From positions 1 to 48,291 of the forward strand of contig JAJHRF010000010.1 of the NCBI GenBank assembly GCA_020832925.1: a stretch of 48,291 nt of DNA, written 5' to 3'. Shown here in pieces: positions 18,335 through 18,671 of the stretch. The notes beneath the pieces were generated by a model. That model did not search any database. It was not told where the DNA came from and saw nothing but the letters and a program-made list of their open reading frames with translations. Source of the stretch: Desulfurococcaceae archaeon (GTDB taxonomy: Archaea; Thermoproteota; Thermoprotei_A; Sulfolobales; Ignisphaeraceae). The position numbers were made by a program, and so were the translations under genes. Every line of letters begins with the position of its first letter. Within the stretch, counting starts at the first letter, position 1.

Positions 18335-18397
18335 CCGGTGATGCAAAGTCTTAAAAACTTATTAATATGAATACTGATGATTACTAAGGGTATCTCT

Positions 18398-18538
18398 ATG
18401 TCTATTGAAAAGAAGTGTATAGAGATATGCGATGACGTTATCGATTGTAGTGTTTGTGTAGACGATGAATGTGAAAAAGTATGTAGCGAGTTAGAGGATA
18501 AATGCTTAAGCATATGCGTTGAAACATTAGGAGAATAA
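18398..18538 (+). CDS. Small acidic cysteine-rich protein, 46 residues
   Basis: A short gene with eight cysteines at positions 7, 11, 17, 20, 25, 29, 36 and 40. They form CX3C, CX2C, CX3C and CX3C pairs separated by 5, 4 and 6 residues. The protein starts MSIEKKCIEICDDV and ends CLSICVETLGE; about 14 Asp/Glu against 4 Lys make it strongly acidic. It has no signal peptide or membrane segment. AAGGG ten bases before the ATG supports this start; an in-frame ATG at 18377 would add seven residues. Regular cysteine spacing over a helix-like pattern suggests metal or cluster binding, or a disulfide-stapled helical hairpin. I do not know a matching family. Neighbours are a GNAT enzyme upstream and an sRNA plus the Fe-S helicase XPD downstream. 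Confidence 0.7.
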   Translation: MSIEKKCIEICDDVIDCSVCVDDECEKVCSELEDKCLSICVETLGE

Positions 18539-18613: not shown

Positions 18614-18671
18614 ATAATGATGAGGCTTTAGGCCTCTGCTGATGGATGATGTAGCCCCTACCCCCTGAACG
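18614..18671 (+). ncRNA. C/D box sRNA
   Basis: C ATGATGA (18617-18623), guide GGCTTTAGGCCTCTG, D' CTGA (18639-18642), spacer TGG, C' ATGATGT (18646-18652), guide AGCCCCTACCCC, D CTGA (18665-18668). The boxes and the 3-nt spacer are standard; only the last base of C' differs from consensus. The first guide contains the self-complementary AGGCCT. The gene lies between the Cys-rich small protein and XPD. Targets were not determined. Confidence 0.88.

Follow-up and report, generated by a model that had tools for sequence, protein, structure and literature searches.

A conserved eight-cysteine small protein of the archaeal Ignisphaera family, predicted to fold as a helical hairpin

Ferredoxins of the 2[4Fe-4S] type are acidic proteins of about 50–55 aa with eight cysteines, in which the motif CX2CX2CX3CP occurs twice within a beta structure. 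A different arrangement, in which antiparallel helices carry CX3C...CX3C, allows two disulfides to form in the twin-CX3C proteins (PMC3848088) and likewise in the alpha-hairpinins (PMC11591084). The small Tims, the mitochondrial twin-CX3C proteins, consist of two antiparallel helices with facing CX3C pairs that form disulfides when oxidised, and zinc may hold their reduced cysteines (PMC3848088). The copper storage protein Csp3 binds Cu(I) through CXXXC motifs (PMC5171941), and Archaea are also known to hold one-domain zinc-finger micro-proteins, cysteine-containing proteins of <70 aa described from haloarchaea, the majority of which bind zinc (PMC11241148, PMC10716476). Here we describe an archaeal gene whose product resembles each of these in some respect.

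The window, i.e., the whole stretch of DNA analysed, is a 48,291-nt contig of a Desulfurococcaceae archaeon. Translation of its positions 18398-18538 on the forward strand gives a 46-aa protein, MSIEKKCIEICDDVIDCSVCVDDECEKVCSELEDKCLSICVETLGE, with cysteines at positions 7, 11, 17, 20, 25, 29, 36 and 40, and thus bears out the original observation of an acidic chain in which three of the cysteine pairs are CX3C and the fourth is CX2C. The features of the locus, all on the forward strand, are as follows.

18350..18364, forward strand: TATA-like element rich in A/T (CTTAAAAACTTATTA), some 45 nt upstream of the ATG, a possible own promoter of the gene (sequence; ortholog elements)
18398..18538, forward strand: eight-cysteine gene, 46 aa, ATG at 18398 and stop TAA at 18536-18538 (translation, 12 orthologs, eight invariant cysteines, purifying selection)
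18416..18430, forward strand: outer CX3C pair 1 (C7, C11), in predicted helix 1, residues 3-14 (sequence, AlphaFold2, invariant)
18446..18457, forward strand: inner CX2C pair (C17, C20), at the turn that joins both predicted helices (sequence, AlphaFold2, invariant)
18470..18484, forward strand: inner CX3C pair (C25, C29), at the N-terminal end of predicted helix 2, which spans residues 23-44 (sequence, AlphaFold2, invariant)
18503..18517, forward strand: outer CX3C pair 2 (C36, C40), towards the C-terminal end of predicted helix 2 (sequence, AlphaFold2, invariant)

The window has 559 stop-to-stop frames of 30-120 aa, of which this ORF alone holds at least eight cysteines, and its pattern of TGY spacing occurs once even with up to three mismatches allowed, against none expected from shuffles. 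An alternative upstream start at 18377 is possible, however the ortholog alignment begins only at about 18398. The Shine-Dalgarno sequence is weak, with AAGGG alone before the ATG, so that the “good ribosome-binding site” first ascribed to the gene was an overstatement; some orthologs have clearer sites (GGAGGTGA or GGTGATC). C/TTTTTAAA-like TATA-like elements lie 34-45 nt ahead of ortholog starts, in several genomes embedded in the 3′ end of an oxidoreductase gene, and their position suggests that the small gene has its own promoter. The ortholog in genome G002 (L044 ~8255; G002:C1 ~34255) has no ATG, GTG or TTG between the last stop and the first cysteine; GGTGATC is followed there by ATA, which suggests either an AUA start or a sequence error.

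Orthologs were searched for in 60 related genomes, class-wide in 229 genomes and in a phylum sample of 398; the first of these sets already yielded orthologs, within the family of the window genome. The class-wide search returned 13 strong members with E-values of 1e-18 to 1e-21, all belonging to a single heat-loving family (hereafter the Ignisphaera family) whose named records include Ignisphaera as well as Desulfurococcales and Thermoprotei MAGs. Conservation in close relatives, proposed at the outset as a check, was thus found in 12 orthologs besides the window protein, each with all eight cysteines at the same spacing. The pattern C-x3-C-x5-C-x2-C-x4-C-x3-C-x6-C-x3-C within an acidic chain of 45-55 aa is common to 13/13 members, whose identity to the window protein is 37-65%; the eight cysteines are the only invariant alignment columns, every other column being conserved at <90%. 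Their codons alternate freely between TGT and TGC, Ka/Ks is 0.02-0.25 where computable, with synonymous sites near saturation, and the shifted forward frames mostly contain stops. The small size, the weak Shine-Dalgarno sequence and the G002 ortholog with its missing start codon could be taken to mean that the ORF is a chance frame that codes for no protein, a reading we consider hardly credible, because frame and cysteines are conserved in 13 genomes under strong purifying selection and most other forward frames are interrupted by stops. By every comparative test applied to the sequences, the ORF is a real gene.

Carriers make up 13 of the 18 genomes of the Ignisphaera family. Among the other five, G009 belongs to the same genus and is a single contig of 99% completeness, and this complete genus member has lost the gene; the remaining four are 55-80% complete. 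At the syntenic site of G009 (L127 5540-5700) the flanking genes are in place with 82 bp between them, a clean absence that can be used as a natural deletion. Outside the family, the sampled Thermoproteota yielded no relative: the 229-genome class and 398-genome phylum samples gave only weak partial matches, several of them broken by stops, and the exact cysteine-spacing matches among those listed look like low-complexity TGT-type DNA repeats. A viral origin was considered and rejected: viral contigs were empty by both pattern and tblastn searches, and PHROGs gave no significant match.

AlphaFold2, run with eight orthologs, predicted helices at residues 3-14 and 23-44 with a mean pLDDT of 91.4, all five models scoring >89, a confident prediction in agreement with the helical hairpin that had been suggested from the cysteine spacing. 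The protein is thus probably a two-helix hairpin held by its cysteines, which in such a hairpin would line up by position as nested rungs 7/40, 11/36, 17/29 and 20/25 with position sums of 47, 47, 46 and 45. Nesting as tight is seen in 2.5% of random eight-position sets, a modest figure for a feature judged post hoc. A Foldseek search of the model against the PDB returned nothing significant (best E 7.5). This geometry could accommodate four cross-helix disulfides or, alternatively, two four-thiolate metal sites.

In the window, the gene is flanked by genes for a two-domain GNAT-like protein and an XPD/Rad3-type helicase. The Fe-S helicase to which attention was initially drawn does adjoin the gene in this genome, but a meaningful link was rejected, since where found in other genomes the helicase is on other contigs or far away. 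A link to the upstream GNAT-domain protein was also rejected, the adjacency being common to G002 only. Between the eight-cysteine gene and the helicase, positions 18616-18671 (forward strand) likely hold an archaeal C/D box sRNA, with both C and D boxes present; its best Rfam match is sR9 (23.5 bits, E 0.017), under the gathering score.

A more recurrent neighbour is a divergent FAD-type oxidoreductase (about 340 aa), which profile searches link distantly to UDP-galactopyranose mutase and to amine oxidases. The eight-cysteine gene directly follows it in six genomes (G001, G003, G004, G005, G010 and G015). Five of these also encode, upstream of the oxidoreductase, a 116-aa thioredoxin-like protein that lacks CXXC; the exception is G010, where the contig starts with the oxidoreductase. 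In G006 the order is kept with a spacer of about 870 bp, and in G017 the two genes are convergent, which brings the genomes where the oxidoreductase adjoins the gene to eight. Because they belong to two genera, this neighbourhood is probably ancestral. The two genes are apart in G000, G002, G007 and G008. Since the oxidoreductase is also present without the eight-cysteine gene in G009 and in other families, any partnership would be accessory. The spacer in G006 (L045 7795-8667) holds no convincing gene. The oxidoreductase family itself (L048 7732-8754 and orthologs) has no Pfam match above cut-off, has homologs in five families of the order, and has gained a CX3C in six Ignisphaera genomes. 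No Cys-rich partner like the eight-cysteine family was found near its distant homologs, and its structure model is too poor to use (pLDDT 39.5). A conserved 220-aa protein without a Pfam match (L048 8893-9561, reverse strand, and orthologs) is convergent to the eight-cysteine gene in seven genomes.

We tentatively favour, as the leading reading although short of an even chance, a cytosolic acidic hairpin that is mostly disulfide-oxidised and serves as an accessory or adaptor; the fold is predicted, and redox state, partner and role are what we infer. The eight cysteines would face each other across two antiparallel helices as rungs C7-C40, C11-C36, C17-C29 and C20-C25, most of which would be oxidised in the cell to cross-helix disulfides by archaeal protein disulfide oxidoreductase (PDO). 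The outcome would be a heat-proof 5-kDa scaffold with a strongly acidic surface, which on this reading may be the conserved feature besides the cysteines, and this small protein would serve in an accessory or adaptor role, probably close to the flavin oxidoreductase whose gene often lies beside its own. PDO (TIGR02187) is found above cut-off in 16/18 family genomes, including 10/10 high-quality ones, and Crenarchaea are reported to be universally rich in cytosolic disulfides (PMC3177088); because of these two points, and because known CX3C hairpins use disulfides (PMC3848088, PMC11591084), we lean slightly to disulfides over metal sites, which taken in total are nearly as likely. However, PDO occurs widely, with no specificity for this protein, the predicted packing lacks template support (no PDB match by Foldseek), Zn2+ or Fe-S could also be bound by the two four-thiolate sets, and in composition an acidic eight-cysteine protein of about 50 aa is ferredoxin-like.

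The same hairpin could instead hold two four-thiolate sites, C7/C11/C36/C40 and C17/C20/C25/C29, each with Zn2+ or Fe-S. The protein would then be a zinc mini-protein with a structural role, or else an all-helical, ferredoxin-like protein that carries electrons for the flavin oxidoreductase. We regard such sites as possible but less likely than the oxidised hairpin: the eight strictly conserved cysteines form two nested sets of four in a small acidic chain, the turn CX2C looks like a metal knuckle and the FAD-type oxidoreductase is adjacent in two genera, yet comparison with Fe-S and zinc families gave nothing beyond a weak Fer4_3 match (E 1.2), no conserved basic or aromatic residue lies near the cysteines, and the flavoprotein also occurs without the gene in G009 and in other families. 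In its boldest form, the 46-residue all-helical hairpin with two four-cysteine metal or Fe-S sites would be a ferredoxin-sized electron carrier of new fold, found in one archaeal family and originally paired with the flavin oxidoreductase, which we think unlikely. Storage and detoxification of Cu(I) or another soft metal, by a miniature copper storage protein dimerising to a thiolate-lined four-helix bundle, is still less probable. The CX3C pairs do lie on one face of the predicted helices, with C25, C29, C36 and C40 spaced 4, 7, 4, and the CXXXC motifs of Csp3 bind Cu(I) (PMC5171941), however the weak DUF326 match (E 0.49) covers 10 residues in 1/13 members below the curated cut-off, and no obvious copper-handling gene is among the listed neighbours. 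We give as little weight to a dithiol/disulfide relay in which the cysteine pairs would cycle, with the flavin oxidoreductase and the thioredoxin-like protein encoded next door using them as substrate or partner. Such a relay would fit the order thioredoxin-like, FAD-type oxidoreductase, eight-cysteine gene, separated by 10-72 bp or overlapping, in five genomes (the FAD-type gene also being directly upstream at the contig start of G010), and the flavoprotein's own CX3C in six Ignisphaera genomes where the gene is close downstream; but the thioredoxin-like protein has no CXXC, the eight-cysteine gene has its own TATA-like element and is unlinked from the flavoprotein in four genomes, and only a single set of related genomes has the CX3C in the flavoprotein.

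This is a well-conserved gene missing from standard family libraries, and its product, which is easy to produce and to test, would rank among the smallest eight-cysteine helical hairpins. Through it one could learn whether stacked disulfides staple mini-proteins in hyperthermophiles or whether such proteins serve there as tiny carriers of metals or clusters.

Comparison with described families agrees with the original view that none matches: Pfam, NCBIfam, PHROGs and the PDB gave no family match, and Pfam matches to DUF326, pollen coat protein and others were insignificant. The 2[4Fe-4S] ferredoxins are alike in size, acidity and number of cysteines, however the spacing differs; the CX2CX2CX3C cluster motif is absent, and the best ferredoxin-type match, Fer4_3 (E 1.2, 2/13 members), is not significant. 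The haloarchaeal zinc-finger micro-proteins carry two C(P)XCG motifs, and C(P)XCG occurs neither in the window protein nor in its orthologs; here eight cysteines are set in an all-helical prediction. Copper storage proteins (Csp/DUF326, PF03860) have in common with it the helix-borne CXXXC motifs and a helical core lined by thiolates (PMC5171941), but a Csp3 monomer is itself a four-helix bundle, assembles into tetramers and has many more cysteines, and the PF03860 match reaches 10.9 bits against a cut-off of 20.4. Plant alpha-hairpinins (4C, 6C) are likewise short helix-loop-helix peptides with CX3C-Xn-CX3C, the cysteines sometimes being the sole conserved residues (PMC11591084), however they are antimicrobial or inhibitor peptides with 4-6 cysteines and no CX2C turn pair. 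Their core, CX3C(X3C)X4-20CX3C(X3C) (PMC11591084), is not matched by the eight-cysteine spacing of 3-5-2-4-3-6-3, which fits neither motif: C25/C29...C36/C40 has the bare 4C spacing, but both pairs are on one predicted helix, and the facing pairs C7/C11 and C36/C40 are separated by 24 residues. These facing pairs, on the antiparallel helices 3-14 and 23-44, do have the twin-CX3C arrangement of the Tim10/DDP type as far as prediction goes, but the small Tims are eukaryotic intermembrane-space proteins of about 10 kDa with four cysteines rather than eight, and none of the 13 members had a twin-CX3C match in Pfam at E<=10, nor was any PDB chain of that family matched. On comparative sequence evidence we conclude that the eight-cysteine protein represents a genuine new clade-restricted small-protein family, which stands outside every known family compared and yet resembles in its mode the cysteine-stapled or thiolate hairpins.
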